Below the pieces are notes generated by a model that saw only the letters and a program-made list of their open reading frames with translations, was not told the DNA's origin and did not search any database. 39,221 bases of DNA from Gammaproteobacteria bacterium (GTDB lineage: Bacteria > Pseudomonadota > Gammaproteobacteria > Ga0077536): NCBI GenBank assembly GCA_030429865.1, contig JAUIFX010000019.1, positions 1 through 39,221 of the forward strand, written 5' to 3'. A program made the position numbers and the translations under genes. Below, one piece after another: positions 33 to 9,150 of this stretch (positions are counted from its first letter, which is position 1; each line of letters starts with the position of its first letter).

Positions 33-48
33 CGGCGTTTCTCCGGCA

Positions 49-144
49 AGCTAACGCCGCGTTAACCCGCGCTTGACTGCGAGGAGTGAAGCGGCAGCGA
101 AACGACGCAGCAGTCAAGCGTCGGTGTTGAACGCGTTGTTAGGC
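49..144 (-). other. attC recombination site of the second cassette
   Basis: This is an imperfect inverted repeat of about 96 bp. Read on the minus strand it opens with GCCTAACAACGCG (R''/L'' side) and closes with GCGGCGTTAGC (L'/R' side). The arms pair through CGCTTGACTGC and GCAGTCAAGCG around a central hairpin. The outer core is a degenerate GTTRRRY box (GTTAGCT). Known attC sites begin CTAACAA and end GCGTTAG in the cassette direction, so this one points leftward, away from intI. It closes the cassette that carries the 98-residue gene. Confidence 0.85.
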
Positions 145-192
145 GCTCGGCGTTTGCTGGCCACCTTTTCTGATTACAGTTATTCAAGGGCA

Positions 193-489
193 TCACTCGA
201 TTGCTTTGTACATCTCTTCGAAAGCATCATCTGGAACCCAAGTCTCGTACTCTTGCTTCGTGCCAAATCTACGGATTGCGAGATATCCCGGAAAGATTCG
301 CTCGCTACTCGGCGGCCGCTTCATATTGCGGCTGTCTTTGAGCTTGTCGTATCGGTGTTGATATTCCCGGTTCGAAAGAGGAATCGCCCGAACTACAGCT
401 CCGTACCGGCGGCCGATATCCTTATCTATCGCGGCGAACTGGTCCATGGCCCACTTGTCCATGTACTTCTTACTAAAGTCGTAGCCCAT
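193..489 (-). CDS. Small hypothetical cassette protein (98 aa)
   Basis: This gene is oriented normally within the second cassette. It starts about 30 bp after the core site at 515-521 and ends about 50 bp before the attC at 49-144. I chose the ATG at 489, which has AGG about 10 nt upstream; an in-frame TTG at 495 would add two residues. The product begins MGYDFSKKYMDKWAMDQF, is soluble and charged, and has no signal peptide or membrane segment. A basic central part (about residues 33-66) is followed by an acidic C-terminus. I recognise no family. Base composition is clearly more AT-rich than the chromosomal genes here, as is usual for mobile cassette genes. A plus-strand reading frame over the same DNA runs into attC and is a shadow. 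Confidence 0.7.
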   Translation of the reverse strand: MGYDFSKKYMDKWAMDQFAAIDKDIGRRYGAVVRAIPLSNREYQHRYDKLKDSRNMKRPPSSERIFPGYLAIRRFGTKQEYETWVPDDAFEEMYKAIE

Positions 490-514
490 ACTCAAAGGCC
501 TGATTATGCGAGGC

Positions 515-625
515 GCCTAACGCTCGGTTGAGCGGCGCGTTACAGCGGGCCTTGCGGAGGCGAAAATGCGGAGCCGCTGGAGCAAGGCCTGCTGTAACGC
601 GTCCGACTCCAACCGATTGTTAGAC
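515..625 (-). other. attC recombination site of the first cassette
   Basis: This is an imperfect inverted repeat of 111 bp. On the minus strand it starts GTCTAACAATCGGTTGG (R''-L'') and ends CTCAACCGAGCGTTAGGC (L'-R'). Inner arms around GCGTTACAGC and GCTGTAACGC extend the stem toward an imperfect central hairpin. Both outer boxes match RYYYAAC and GTTRRRY. The CTAACAA start and GCGTTAG end fix the cassette direction as leftward. Recombination is expected inside GTTAGGC at 521-515. The site closes the first cassette (about 521-1490), so the PEP-CTERM gene inside that cassette is reversed. Confidence 0.92.
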
Positions 626-744
626 GTTTCTCTCTCGGCCTGCTCATCTATGGGGCGATTTTGCACATTTTTACTTTTCATGCGTAGGCGAGACTTACTG
701 CGATGGGTTTAATTGGGCCTCCTTACCGCTCTGAGCATCAAAGA

Positions 745-1431
745 ATGAAGAATCTGACCGCTTGCGGCTGCTTGGCTGCGCTTTTAGGTACCCCAGGCGT
801 TGCAATGGCAACTCTGTTCGGAGGCATAGACTTCCCCCAGGGAACGAGCAGCTTCGCAGATCAAGTTATTCGGTACGACCCGACCTATTCCGGCGGCACG
901 GTCCCGACATCGCCAGATTACAACGACCCACTCCAATCTTTGGGACCTCCGGACGAATCAGGAGGGATCGGGGCGGTAGCTCTCGGGGATGGGGGCCTGC
1001 TTGAACTGCTTTTTGTTGACAACCTTTTGACTAATAGTGGAAGCAACGCTTTCGACCTGCATGTTTTCGAGATCGGCACTGCGATAGAAAGTACTCTAGT
1101 TTCCGTTCGGCCTACAGCAGCGACTGCCGCGCTGCTTGGACCAGTGTTTGACCTCAATGGCGATGGATTCTATGAGGTTGGGGGTATATCAGGTGGTGTC
1201 GCTTCGATTGATATCGACGCGTTCTTTACCGGGTTCGCGGCTGGTGCCCTCCGCTTTGATGCTGTGCAGCTGGTGGACGATCCTAATCAGGGTCCTTCGG
1301 GCTCGGGCGATACCGTAGGTGCAGACATCGATGCAGTAGGTGCAATTAGCTCGGTGAAGGTTCCGGAACCGGCAACGGCACTCCTGATGTGCAGTGGACT
1401 GGTAGGCGCTTTTCAGAGGCGTCGGGGCTAG
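745..1431 (+). CDS. PEP-CTERM sorting-domain protein, reversed in an integron cassette
   Basis: This is a probable exported surface protein of 228 residues. It starts with a signal peptide (MKNLTACGCLAALLGTPGVA, cleavage near AMA-T). It ends with a PEP-CTERM sorting signal: VPEPATA, a short hydrophobic stretch and the basic tail FQRRRG. Such signals are recognised by exosortase, which cleaves the protein during delivery to the cell surface; no exosortase is present in this window. The middle (about residues 60-200) resembles the beta-rich domain of other PEP-CTERM proteins, with DNLLTNSG and DLHVFEIG motifs. An in-frame ATG at 703 would add 14 residues before the signal peptide. I prefer 745 because it gives a normal signal sequence, although neither start has a strong RBS. 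The gene reads against its own cassette, toward attI and intI. Confidence 0.8.
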   Translation: MKNLTACGCLAALLGTPGVAMATLFGGIDFPQGTSSFADQVIRYDPTYSGGTVPTSPDYNDPLQSLGPPDESGGIGAVALGDGGLLELLFVDNLLTNSGSNAFDLHVFEIGTAIESTLVSVRPTAATAALLGPVFDLNGDGFYEVGGISGGVASIDIDAFFTGFAAGALRFDAVQLVDDPNQGPSGSGDTVGADIDAVGAISSVKVPEPATALLMCSGLVGAFQRRRG

Positions 1432-1484
1432 CCGTTATCGTAGAGAGTTGGTAGTTCCGCGTACTCGCGGTGGCGGTTGGCAAC

Positions 1485-1560
1485 GTCTAACAGTTAAGTA
1501 GACGGAATCTCGTACCGGGGTAATAGGCAGAATCCGTATAGCTCATTTGATTGGGATTAT
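1485..1560 (-). other. Putative attI site beside the integrase gene
   Basis: A GTTAGAC core (GTTRRRY) lies on the minus strand at 1491-1485, with no attC-like inverted arm around it, between intI and the first cassette. This is where attI is expected. Cassettes 1 and 2 are both bounded by matching cores. The core is part of an imperfect palindrome at 1485-1503 (GTCTAACAGTTAAGTAGAC). The inner boundary toward intI is arbitrary, because attI sites are not conserved between integrons. Confidence 0.55.
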
Positions 1561-1587
1561 TTATAGTCGGGATTGGTGAGAGCTTAT

Positions 1588-1636: not shown

Positions 1637-3049
1637 ATGGGCAGGAAGTATCGCAGCGACTCGCTGCTGCCTGACGATCGTTTCTGGGACAAGTTCATTG
1701 CGGCGGCCCGGCGCCATGTCTCCGATGCCTCGGAGCTGGCTTGGCTGGTGCGGCGCATGGAACGCTACCTCAAGGCGCATCCGGAGCTGCCGCTTGTGCG
1801 TCACCGGGACCACGATGTCTCGGCCTGGTTCACGCGCGCCGGGAGGGCGACGCGTGGTGGCGGACGGCAGTTCCGGCAAGCGGTGATGGCGCTGCGGATC
1901 TGCTTCGAGGAACTGCTCGCGCTCGAGTGGGCGGCCGATTTCGACTGGGAGTACTGGCTGGCCTCGGCGCGGACCTTGGATCGCACACATCCCACGGTTG
2001 CGCGCGATTACCAGACTGCTGGCCTGGTGTTGCCGTCACCCCGGGTTGGCCGCCGCATCAACACGCAGGTGATGAAGACCGCGCGTGTCAGGCATGCTAA
2101 GACCCTGCATGCGCTGGTGTCGGAGATCCGCCGACGGTCGTATTCGATTCGCACCGAGCAGGCCTACGAACAGTGGGTCTGTCGCTTCCTCCTTTACCAC
2201 GGCAATCGCGAGCCACGCGAGTTGGGTGCGGATCACGTGGTCGACTACCTCAACCATCTCGCCGCGGAACGCGTGGTTTCTGCCAGCACACAGAACCAGG
2301 CTTTGAATGCGCTGGCGTTTCTCTATACGCAGGTGCTGGACATCGAGCTGCCGGAGCTCACGGCCCTGGTCCGGGCTAAGTTGTCGAAACGTCTGCCGGT
2401 CGTGTTGTCACCCGACCAGATGCGGCTGCTGTTCAGCCATATGAGCGGGCGTCACCTGCTGATGGCGCGCTTGCTGTACGGCACGGGCATGCGCCTGATG
2501 GAGTGCGTGCGGCTGCGCGTGAAGGATATCGATTTCGACTATCGTCAGATCGTGGTGCGCGATGGCAAGGGCGCGAAGGACCGCGTCGTGCCTTTTCCGG
2601 ACGCGCTGCGAGCGCCCTTGCAGGCGCATCTCGACGAAGTACGCGATGTGTTTGCGCAGGACCGGGCGGATGGCGTTGGCGAGGTGTACCTTCCGCATGC
2701 GCTCGCGCGCAAGTATCCCTCGGCGCCGACAGAGTGGGTGTGGCAATACGCGTTTCCGAGCGGCCGGCTATCAGTCGATCCGCGCTCGAAGAAGACACGT
2801 CGCCACCACACGCACGAAAGCGGCCTGCAGAAGGCGGTGCGGCGCGCTGCCCGCGCGGCCGATCTGCCGAAGACCGTCACCTGCCACACGCTGCGCCATT
2901 CCTTTGCCACGCACCTGCTCGAAGCCGGCCAGGACATCCGCACGGTGCAGGAACTGCTTGGCCATGCGGACGTTTCGACGACGATGATCTATACCCACGT
3001 GCTCAATCGCGGCGGCAAGGGCGTGCTGAGTCCACTGGACCGCTTGTGA
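1637..3049 (+). CDS. intI: Integron integrase with extended N-terminus
   Basis: This is a tyrosine recombinase that inserts and excises cassettes by attI x attC recombination. The product is 470 aa; most IntI proteins are about 320-340 aa. The start at 1637 follows GGGAGG at a 7-nt spacing; an upstream in-frame ATG at 1613 lacks an RBS. The conventional core-binding domain spans about residues 150-235. The catalytic domain has Arg in GTGMRLME, Lys in GKGAKDR, the LRHSFATH box, LGHADV and the nucleophile Tyr in TTMIYTHV. The insertion unique to integron integrases is present ([21 protein letters not shown]), followed by [12 protein letters not shown] and the [12 protein letters not shown] ending. 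The extra first 140 residues look helical and resemble a second core-binding fold. The gene is divergent from the cassette array and appears intact. Confidence 0.95.
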
Positions 3050-4748: not shown

Positions 4749-4812
4749 CCTGACAAGGCAGTCTCATGCTGCGTTGCCAAAAGTGTCTGACACTTTTGCT
4801 CACTTTTTGCTC
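4749..4812. repeat. Palindromic intergenic repeat, copy 1
   Basis: The core AAAAGTGTCTGACACTTTT (4779-4797) has 9-bp arms around one base. It is flanked by CATGCTGCGTTGCC on the left and GCTCACTTTTTGCTC on the right. The whole block matches copy 2 at 4865-4927 with a few differences, and the unit begins CCTGACA in both. The pair occupies the 315-bp purH-purD gap, where no gene is seen. Confidence 0.8.
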
Positions 4813-4864: not shown

Positions 4865-4927
4865 CCTGACACGCGCGTGCCATGCTGCGCTGCCAAAAGT
4901 GTCTGACACTTTTGCTCGCTTTTGCTC
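4865..4927. repeat. Palindromic intergenic repeat, copy 2
   Basis: This copy has the same 19-bp palindrome (4895-4913), preceded by CATGCTGCGCTGCC and followed by GCTCGCTTTTGCTC. It ends five bases before the purH stop on the minus strand. In the purH transcript, copy 2 is read first and copy 1 next, ahead of purD. The stem-plus-T character could slow or end transcription or protect 3' ends. It may belong to a dispersed family in this genome, which this window cannot show. Confidence 0.8.
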
Positions 4928-4932
4928 GCCGC

Positions 4933-6519
4933 TCAGTGGCGGAAGTGGCGCTCGCCGGTGAACACCATGGCCATGCCGTGCTCGTCGGCCGCCGCGATCA
5001 CTTCTTCGTCGCGCATCGAGCCGCCCGGCTGGATGACGGCACGGATGCCGGCTTCGGCGGCCTGGTCGATGGTGTCGCGGAACGGGAAGAAGGCGTCGGA
5101 GGCCATCACCGAGCCGGGCACCTCGAGACCTTCGTCGGCCGCCTTGATGGCAGCGATGCGCGCGCTGTAGACGCGGCTCATCTGCCCGGCGCCGATACCG
5201 ATGGTGCGGCGGTCGCGCGCGTAGACGATGGCGTTCGACTTCACGCACGCGACGACGCGCCAGGCGAAGATCAGGTCGCGCAGTTCCTCCATGCTGGGGC
5301 TGCGCCGCGTGACCGGCTTGATCGATCCGGCCGCGGTGGTTTGCGCGGCAAAGTCGCGATCCTGCACGAGCAGGCCGCCCATGACGCGTTTGTATTCGAG
5401 CTGGCGCAAGGGCTCGGCTGGCCACTGGCCGCAGGCCAGCACGCGCACGTTGGTCTTGTGCGCGAGCGCTTCGAGTGCGGCGGGTTCGATTTCCGGCGCG
5501 ATGATCACTTCGACGAACTGGCGCTCGACGATGCTCGCGGCGAGCTTCGCGCCGAGCGGCCGGTTGAACGCGATGATGCCGCCGAAGGCCGAGGTCGGGT
5601 CGGTCGCGTAGGCGAGCTCGTAGGCGGTTTCGAGGTCGCGCGCCTCGGCCACGCCGCAGGGGTTGGCGTGCTTGACGATGCAGCACGCCGGCTCGCGGAA
5701 CGAACGCACGCAGTCGAGCGCGGCGTCGGTGTCGGCGATGTTGTTGTAGGACAGTTCCTTGCCCTGGAGCTGGCGCGCGCTCGCGATGGTGCCGGAGGGC
5801 GCGTCGGCATCGACGTAGAACGCCGCCTGCTGGTGCGGGTTCTCGCCGTAGCGCAGCGGCTGCTTGAGGCGCACCCGGATGTCGAGCTGGGCCGGGAAAG
5901 GTTCGGGTTCGCCGCCGGTGCGCGCACCGAGGAAGGTGCTGATGGCGTGATCGTAGTGCGCGGTGTGCGCGAAGGCCTTCGTCGCCAGGCGGTAGCGCGT
6001 CGCCGCGCTGACCATGGTCGAGCGGTCGATCTCTTCGAGCACCAGGCCGTAGTCGTCCGGGTCGCACACCACGGCAACGTGCGAGTGGTTCTTGGCCGCC
6101 GCGCGCAGCAGCGCGGGACCGCCGATGTCGATGTTTTCGATCGCCTCGTCCAGGGTGCAGTCGCGCCGCGCGATGGTCTGCTCGAACGGGTACAGGTTGA
6201 CCACCACGATGTCGATCGGCTCGATGCCGTGCTCGCTCATCACCGCGTCGTCGATGCCGCGCCGGGCGAGGATGCCGCCATGCACCTTGGGGTGCAGGGT
6301 CTTCACGCGCCCTTCCATCATCTCCGCAAAGCCGGTGTGCTCGGAGACGTCGCGCACGTCGACGCCGGCCTCGCGCAGCGCGCGTGCCGAGCCGCCGGTG
6401 GAGAGAATGCCGTAACCCGCACGCACCAGGCCGTGCGCGAGATCGGACAGCCCGCGCTTGTCGGAAACGCTGATCAGTGCCCAGGCGCGAACCGGGGTCT
6501 CGGATGGGGTGGTGCTCAT
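4933..6519 (-). CDS. purH: Bifunctional AICAR transformylase/IMP cyclohydrolase
   Basis: PurH catalyses the last two steps of de novo IMP synthesis: formylation of AICAR with 10-formyl-THF, then ring closure to IMP. The product is 528 aa, close to the E. coli length. The N-terminal MGS-like cyclohydrolase domain covers about 1-150, with [17 protein letters not shown] and [13 protein letters not shown]. The transformylase domain follows, with the KH of [18 protein letters not shown] and the ending [14 protein letters not shown]. The ATG at 6519 overlaps the fis stop (ATGA), which points to translational coupling. An apparent longer frame reaching 7026 is only open by chance through fis and dusB. 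Confidence 0.98.
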
Positions 6520-6779
6520 GATGCCTTGCCGTTGAGTCCGTACTTGTTCAGGCGCGTGCGCAGCGTCGCGCGGTTCATGCCGAGCAGCTCGGCGGCGCGC
6601 GAGATGTTGCCGCGCGTCTGGCGCATCACGATCTCGAACAACGGACGCTCGACCTGTGCGATGACGAGTTCGTGCAGGTCGGCCGGCTGCTGGCCGTTGA
6701 GGTCCTCGAAGTAGCGTTCGAGCGCGTCCGCGACGAGCTCGCACAGCGGCGGGTTCGGCTTCTTGCCCGGCTCGCTCAC
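6516..6779 (-). CDS. fis: Fis-family nucleoid protein
   Basis: Fis is a small DNA-bending, nucleoid-associated regulator that acts as a dimer. The product is 87 aa; E. coli Fis has 98, and the missing part is at the N-terminus. The C-terminal helix-turn-helix is clear ([20 protein letters not shown], then LNKYGL) and is preceded by the dimerisation helices. The start is GTG at 6779 and overlaps the dusB stop (GTGA). The stop overlaps the purH ATG (ATGA). Fis is therefore translated as the middle cistron of dusB-fis-purH. The dusB-fis order is a standard gammaproteobacterial feature. Confidence 0.95.
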
Positions 6780-7747
6780 GCTGCGAGCTCCCACGGCGCG
6801 GCGGCGAGCGCGTCGACGAAGTCGAGCTGCGCCTGCGTGCTCTCGAGCGCGTTGAACGCACGCCGTGTCTCGCGCGACAGTCCGAGGTCCTCGAAATACC
6901 AGCCGACGTGCTTGCGCGCGATGCGCACGCCGTGCGCGCCGTACAACGCGTGGATGCCGCACAGGTGCTCGCGCAGCACGGCGATCCGCGCGGCGGCGGC
7001 GGGGCGGGTATGGCACCGCCCGGCAAGGCCGGCGGCGAGCTCGGCGAACAGCCACGGCCGGCCGCGCGCGGCGCGCCCGATCATCAGGCCGTCACAGGCG
7101 GTGTGGGCGAGCACGTGGCGGGCCTCGGCGACGCTCGTGATATCGCCGTTGGCGATGACCGGGATGCGCACCGCGGCTTTCATCGCCGCGATGGTGTCGT
7201 ACTCGGCGTGGCCCTTGAACGCGCATTCGCGCGTGCGGCCATGCACGGTCAGTGCCGCGATGCCGGCATCCTCGGCGATGCGCGCGATGCGCACGCCGTT
7301 GCGCGCCGCGCGGCGCCAGCCGGTGCGCGTCTTCAGCGTGACCGGCACGTCGACCGCGGCCACGACCTCGTGCAGGATCGCGGCGACCAGGTTTTCGTCA
7401 CGCAGCAGCGCAGAGCCCGCCTGCTTGTCGAGCACCTTCTTTGCCGGACAGCCCATGTTGATGTCGACGATGTCTGCGCCGAGCGCGACCGCGGCACGCG
7501 CGGCGTCGGCCATCGGCGCGCCTTCGGCGCCGGCGATCTGCACGATGCGCGGCGACGGCTCGTCGTCCATCACGAGGCGCGTGCGGGTCTTCTTGCTCGA
7601 CCACAAGTGGGTCTGTGCGCAGACCATCTCGGTCACCGCGTAGGCCGCGCCGAAGCGCCGCGCGAGCTGGCGCATGGGCCGATCGCTCACCCCCGCCATC
7701 GGGGCCAGCACCAGCGGCTGGTCGAACTGGAAAGGGCCGATATGCAT
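6776..7747 (-). CDS. dusB: tRNA-dihydrouridine synthase
   Basis: This FMN-dependent enzyme reduces specific uridines in tRNA to dihydrouridine using NADPH. The product is 323 aa, full length. The TIM-barrel signatures include [14 protein letters not shown] (about 13-26) and [10 protein letters not shown] with the catalytic Cys near residue 100. [23 protein letters not shown] and IPVIANGDI follow, then [15 protein letters not shown] and the C-terminal helical domain. Assignment to the B subfamily rests on these motifs and on adjacency to fis. The 251 bp upstream contain no gene and probably hold the promoter of dusB-fis-purH; no clear -35/-10 pair was seen. Confidence 0.95.
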
Positions 7748-7998: not shown

Positions 7999-9012
7999 TC
8001 ACAGGAAACGGAACTCGAAACTCGTCGCCGCGGCGTCGGGCCCGGCCAGCTCGATGACCACGTAGACCGGCTGCCGCGGCGGCATGCCGGCCGCAACGGG
8101 CATGCTGTGGTCGAGGTACTCGGCAGGGTCGAAGCGCCGCGCGCCGACGGCACGCCCACCGGCATCGTGCAGCACGAGTTCGATGATCGGAAACGGGGCG
8201 CTCGTCGCGCCGTCGTTGACGAGCGTCGCGTTGACGAGCAGGGCGTGCTCGTATTGCGGATGCTCGCGCACGTCGCGGGCGAGGAGGCGCACGCCGCCGC
8301 GTCCGTCCGCGGCCAGTGGTGGACAGGGCAGCCTGGCGCACAGCCGTTCGAGCCACGGTGCGGCAGCCGGCACCGCCACCGCCAGCGCGGCCCGCTCGAC
8401 GACGGCGAACTGCACCAACAGAGCGCATCCGAGCAGCACGCAGGCCACCGCCCACCACGGGCGGCGCCGCGGCTGTCGCGCCTGCGCGCGCGCCAGCGCC
8501 GCGTATTCCTCGCGCAACAGGGCCGGCACATCGTCCGCGGGTGGCGCGCCGCCGGTGTCGACGCTCCGGCGCGCCGCGGTTTCGGCTTCGGCGGTTTCGG
8601 CTTCGGCGGTTTCGGCTTCGGCGGTTTCGGCTTCGGCGGTTTCGGCTTCGGCGGTTTCGGCTTCGGCGGTTTCGGCTTCGGCGGTTTCGGCCTCGGCGGT
8701 GTCGGCCTCGGCGGTGTCGGCCTCGGCGACTTCGGATTCGGCGACTTCGGATTCGGCTATATCGCCCTCGGCAGTTTCCGCCGCGGCTGTCTCGCTCTCG
8801 CTTGCCGCCGGGATCGCGGGCGCAGGCGCGGGATGCGTCGACGGTGCGTTCACGTCGAGGCGCGGCGCTGCCGCGGGCTCGTCGTCGACCAGCGTCGCGA
8901 GTGCGCTGAAGACGCGGTCGCAGGTGCCGCAGGTGACGCGACCGTGGGCGATGCTGAGCTGTTCGGCGCGCACGCGGAACCAGCTCTGGCAATATGGGCA
9001 ACGCGTCAGCAC
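7999..9012 (-). CDS. Zinc-ribbon and DUF3426 single-span membrane protein
   Basis: The function is unknown, but this is the usual neighbour between prmA and dusB. The product is 337 aa with a GTG start at 9012 and GGGAG upstream. Residues 1-35 form an MJ0042-type zinc ribbon (CPYC at 5-8, CGTC at 28-31). Residues about 50-150 are an Ala/Glu/Thr-rich linker built from repeats of five residues (AEAET-like), encoded by a 15-bp minisatellite. One membrane span lies near residues 187-206 (WWAVACVLLGCALLVQFAVV). The C-terminal half is DUF3426-like and beta-rich, ending FEFRFL. The predicted topology puts the zinc ribbon and the acidic linker in the cytoplasm and DUF3426 in the periplasm. The acidic linker is not typical of the family in my experience and its length may vary. 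Confidence 0.85.
   Translation of the reverse strand: MLTRCPYCQSWFRVRAEQLSIAHGRVTCGTCDRVFSALATLVDDEPAAAPRLDVNAPSTHPAPAPAIPAASESETAAAETAEGDIAESEVAESEVAEADTAEADTAEAETAEAETAEAETAEAETAEAETAEAETAEAETAEAETAARRSVDTGGAPPADDVPALLREEYAALARAQARQPRRRPWWAVACVLLGCALLVQFAVVERAALAVAVPAAAPWLERLCARLPCPPLAADGRGGVRLLARDVREHPQYEHALLVNATLVNDGATSAPFPIIELVLHDAGGRAVGARRFDPAEYLDHSMPVAAGMPPRQPVYVVIELAGPDAAATSFEFRFL
8581..8760. repeat. 15-bp minisatellite, 12 units, inside the DUF3426 gene
   Basis: There are twelve consecutive units of TTCGGCTTCGGCGGT or close variants. The first seven (8581-8685) are identical and the rest diverge progressively toward 8760, with two further degenerate units to 8790. Because the unit is 15 bp, gain or loss of copies keeps the frame and changes the protein linker by five residues (TAEAE) each time. 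The gradient from identical to degenerate units suggests recent expansion at the low-coordinate end, nearer the 3' end of the gene. Confidence 0.95.
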
Positions 9013-9150
9013 GGCGCGCGATCTCCCGGCAGGGGTGGGCGGCGTCGATCGCGGGGTGCGCCTCGCGGCCGGCGGGGCACACGGCGTTCGACCCGCGCAG
9101 TGTATACGCGATGCCGGCGCGGCGCAGGGCGCGCTGCCCGCGGGCAGCGC

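Follow-up and report, generated by a model that had tools for sequence, protein, structure and literature searches.

The window, the whole stretch of 39,221 nucleotides that was analyzed, begins at base 1 of contig 248 of a gammaproteobacterial MAG (4.6 Mb in 291 contigs). An integron lies close to that contig end. Leftward from the integrase gene, intI, come attI and two cassettes directed on the minus strand, after which the contig ends inside the array, cutting it so that only two cassettes are visible. The integrase gene itself, attI beside it, and attC ends with an imperfect hairpin are all found; an Rfam search of the window returned no match. The intI gene (1637 to 3049, plus strand) is identified by its relatives and by model TIGR02249 (468 bits, cut-off 265). 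Its reading frame opens at 1613, but the start at 1637, behind GGGAGG, is likelier. About 150 residues extend the integrase at its N-terminus (window 1637 to 2110), an extension also present in genomes G001, G014, G016, G020, and G050, and many integrases of the class occupy open frames of 430 to 560 residues. The order of intI and purD is retained in a genome of the same genus, which places the integron in the chromosome. Between purD and purH, a palindrome, CAAAAGTGTCTGACACTTTTG, occurs twice (4778 to 4798 and 4894 to 4914); similar stretches number in the dozens in the same-genus genome and resemble a REP-like dispersed repeat.

The attI region (1491 to 1575, minus strand, its outer limit approximate) is conserved with G014, G016, G020, and G001. 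The first three of these related genomes have CTAACAGTTRANTAGA before intI in common, and the shared sequence extends to CTAAC and then diverges; this conservation up to attI, with variation on the cassette side, defines the boundary, and the crossover falls at 1490/1491. The first cassette, 970 bp in length, runs from 521 to 1490 with its direction on the minus strand. Its attC site, attC1 (515 to 625, minus strand), has R'' GTCTAAC at 619 to 625 and R' GTTAGGC at 515 to 521. R'' is exactly complementary to the cassette start on the attI side (GTTAGAC, 1485 to 1491), and in a reconstruction of the circle the excised cassette would regain a 10-bp terminal stem. The attI-side end and attC1 are therefore parts of a single 970-bp cassette. 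Either strand of attC1 folds far better than shuffled sequence, with z about -7, and the site has the expected RYYYAAC / GTTRRRY ends and folds into an imperfect hairpin whose unpaired bases are confined to one arm. A second site, attC2 (about 46 to 148, minus strand), was identified by attC scan and a hairpin with z about -3. No extra copies of attC1 above chance were found elsewhere in the genome.

The initial annotation had judged cassette direction from the end sequences of attC. Core boxes of the form RYYYAAC...GTTRRRY read the same on both strands and so cannot by themselves fix an orientation. The direction that the annotation reached nevertheless stands. Canonical attC sites carry their unpaired bases on the R'' arm, and when both strands of attC1 are folded, the minus-strand reading places all three unpaired bases (G, T, and A) there, assigning the cassette to the minus strand. 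The position of attI and intI gives the same answer, as does the forward gene of the second cassette (193 to 495, minus strand, 100 residues). That gene has a relative with 45% identity immediately before intI in genome G047 (locus L103), and probably belongs to a shared cassette family. Read from its sequence, the array is a sedentary chromosomal integron with a reversed gene in its first cassette; the placement of that cassette as the first, proposed at the outset, is borne out by attC folding, by the complementary ends, and by the attI shared with related genomes.

The gene in the first cassette (745 to 1431, plus strand, 228 residues) faces attI and intI, against the direction of the cassette. 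The reversed frame, 242 residues long and ending at 1431, compares with forward frames of at most 79 residues, and a minus-strand gene was rejected as a candidate because its longest frame, at 79 residues, lacks support. From the ATG at 745, the protein aligns over its full length with relatives that are 50 to 58% identical, and 23 alignment columns are invariant across 52 relatives, so the reversed gene first seen in the raw sequence proves to be the correct reading. Reversal alone is not rare, since 6 of 71 classified cassettes are reversed, about 8% by this crude estimate.

The product starts with a signal-peptide-like region, MKNLTACGCLAALLGTPGVAMA (745 to 810, plus strand), a hydrophobic N-terminus ending in AMA that was read from the sequence by eye; relatives are hydrophobic at the same N-terminal place. 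Its last 22 residues, PEPATALLMCSGLVGAFQRRR (1360 to 1425, plus strand), match the PEP-CTERM sorting tail, with modest scores that clear the thresholds of both PF07589 (22.6 bits, cut-off 20.7) and TIGR02595 (19.1 bits, cut-off 16), and contain the C-terminal PEP, hydrophobic stretch, and basic end. These matches and the N-terminal region agree with the description of the product as an exported PEP-CTERM protein. The genome, moreover, encodes exosortase A (XrtA), found by TIGR03109 with 311.7 bits (cut-off 208), an enzyme for which the initial annotation had proposed a check. About 17 PEP-CTERM tails score above cut-off in the same genome, and with XrtA and this set of proteins present, processing of the cassette protein is plausible.

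Between these two ends, the protein body (817 to 1359, plus strand) matches no family model, in Pfam or otherwise. Its AlphaFold2 model, with pLDDT 91, is a beta-sandwich that VIA-align superposes on PAPP-A, F-lectin, CBM32, muskelin, and SUN domains (Z 8.7 to 10.3 over 119 to 147 residues). The structural matches are concentrated in one superfamily, with Foldseek E-values that are weak (best 5e-3), and the model suggests a galactose-binding-like fold, for which the ligand is perhaps a carbohydrate. Relatives of the protein form a domain family with no Pfam model (window 745 to 1359, loci L008 to L087), found in about ten phyla, marked by an invariant ADIDAVGAI motif, and carrying sorting tails of at least four kinds. 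Tails among the relatives include PEP-CTERM, VPDSG-CTERM, VPLPA-CTERM, PEPxxWA-CTERM, and one weak MYXO-CTERM, and two planctomycete relatives have a dockerin-like end, as judged by eye. Such differing tails indicate a surface domain that has been joined to different sorting tails across lineages.

Several results point to a foreign source for the gene. Its G+C content is 56.2% and its GC3 53%, whereas the remainder of the window has a G+C of 69.5% and purD a GC3 of 85%. The gene was not found in 57 related genomes, and of 397 genomes sampled from the phylum, only 9 contain the family. In the phylogenetic tree, its sister is a planctomycete protein (support 97/84), within a group drawn from Pseudomonadota, Planctomycetota, and Thermodesulfobacteriota; the nearest relatives in general are scattered across several phyla. 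Searches of plasmid, phage, and viral collections found no relatives. Deviant composition, absence from related genomes, and scattered relatives favor the view of a horizontally acquired gene carried by a cassette, and horizontal origin is likely.

Exosortase systems pair a tail with an enzyme, leading to export, cleavage, and release at the surface. We consider it quite probable that the first cassette feeds such a system. The integrase would have inserted the cassette at attI in normal attC orientation, with the foreign gene inside it already reversed. Lying backwards in its cassette, the gene cannot use the usual cassette promoter, Pc, and expression would come from its own promoter or from plus-strand read-through. 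Sec would then export the protein, and the tail would serve as its inner-membrane anchor until cleavage by XrtA at PEP-CTERM. The freed galactose-binding-like domain would reach the cell surface or the exopolysaccharide, and probably bind carbohydrate there.

Expression is the step at which other readings enter. About 120 bp separate attC1 from the ATG at 745, and upstream of that codon we recognized neither a sigma-70 promoter consensus nor a clear ribosome-binding site, so the reversed gene may be silent. It could then be a passenger that is not expressed, a PEP-CTERM gene of chromosomal origin captured in reverse between attC sites and not yet lost, an explanation we regard as possible but doubtful. 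The gene's opposition to Pc fits that explanation, as does the failure to find another PEP-CTERM cassette in 100 integron-adjacent stretches (described below). However, the reading frame is unbroken and preserves every residue that is invariant in the family, including those of the tail, suggesting selection at least until recently. On the downstream side, the gene and intI are co-directional and only 205 bp apart, with no terminator recognized between them, and read-through into intI is possible from this arrangement. Transcription passing through attI into intI, or colliding with transcripts from Pc, might thereby regulate the integrase; a Vibrio cassette that carries an antisense promoter is reported to silence its neighbor (PMC11014356). 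With no promoter recognized, and with the arrangement seen in one genome only, such regulation is unlikely.

An assembly of 291 contigs with a contig end nearby could also, in principle, have produced a misleading picture, in which an ordinary chromosomal gene lies beside a chimeric join or a hairpin that arose by chance and is not in a first cassette at all. This is highly improbable: R'' pairs exactly with the cassette start and over 10 bp in the circle, a second attC and second cassette follow, attI is conserved, and the base composition of the gene is foreign. An exported, exosortase-processed cassette protein remains our preferred reading of the locus.

The reversed PEP-CTERM cassette is a single copy in one MAG, and its wider distribution was examined in a sample of the class. 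The 100 integron-adjacent stretches, many of them short because contigs break within the array, yielded no further PEP-CTERM cassette; two matches to a PEP-CTERM regular expression have no attC site nearby and appear fortuitous. Nor did close relatives prove to be carried as cassettes: no intI and no clustering of attC-like sites was seen at L008 to L015 or, the window's own locus aside, at the family loci from the 397 sampled genomes. Lone attC-like matches, which arise about once per 30 kb, were counted as chance. One relative, in Thiorhodococcus drewsii (locus L060, 4938 to 5657), does lie in an integron array, in forward orientation, and its C-terminal tail is not PEP-CTERM. The right attC of its cassette folds with z -6 on the bottom strand; the left attC folds poorly (z -0.3), leaving the left end of the cassette uncertain. 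The same array encodes two more proteins (6242 to 6952 and 8358 to 9014) that differ from it and from each other in their N-terminal parts, and all three have a common C-terminal tail of about 55 residues, with pattern GR..xD..n.LYIC..xGW and no Pfam model, perhaps a sorting or assembly tail specific to cassettes. The broader proposal that PEP-CTERM cassettes let surface proteins move horizontally is not supported, with no second example in the 100 stretches or in the Thiorhodococcus relative. We would place only slight belief in its fullest form, that integrons spread exosortase substrates as interchangeable lectins of the cell surface with a tail to fit the host, and that transcription from a reversed first cassette sets the level of integrase.

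What the locus offers is a specific example of a surface protein, predicted to be sorted by exosortase, on an integron cassette, joining two systems whose pairing was not found in our literature search; a full-text search on integrons with PEP-CTERM found no report of a PEP-CTERM cassette. Cassette proteins are often exported, but the means by which they are retained at the surface has seldom been established. In this case, with both the sorting tail and a matching host enzyme present, the idea of surface retention becomes testable, and any influence of the reversed first cassette on intI can be tested directly.

Each part of this element is of a known kind, and the novelty, seen once, is an exosortase tail on a cassette protein. 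Several surveys find signal peptides in 11 to 14% of cassette ORFs (PMC10963911, PMC9668308), and the cassettes of sedentary chromosomal integrons that encode them resemble this one in having attI, intI, a cassette bounded by attC, and an exported product (predicted in our case); they differ in that the gene here is reversed and its product bears a PEP-CTERM sorting tail. Promoter and antisense cassettes of the Vibrio superintegron similarly show transcription within a cassette that is independent of Pc and can oppose it (PMC11014356), but those cassettes are gene-less, whereas this one holds a full reversed gene for which no promoter was recognized. Galactose-binding-like domains such as CBM32, F-lectin, discoidin, and PAPP-A may share the fold predicted here, at the Z scores given above, while the cassette protein, with its invariant ADIDAVGAI motif, has no Pfam match outside its tail. 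Known XrtA substrates share with it the signal-peptide-like start, the short C-terminal tail of PEP, hydrophobic stretch, and Arg, and the presence of XrtA in the genome; this substrate, in contrast, rides on an integron cassette.
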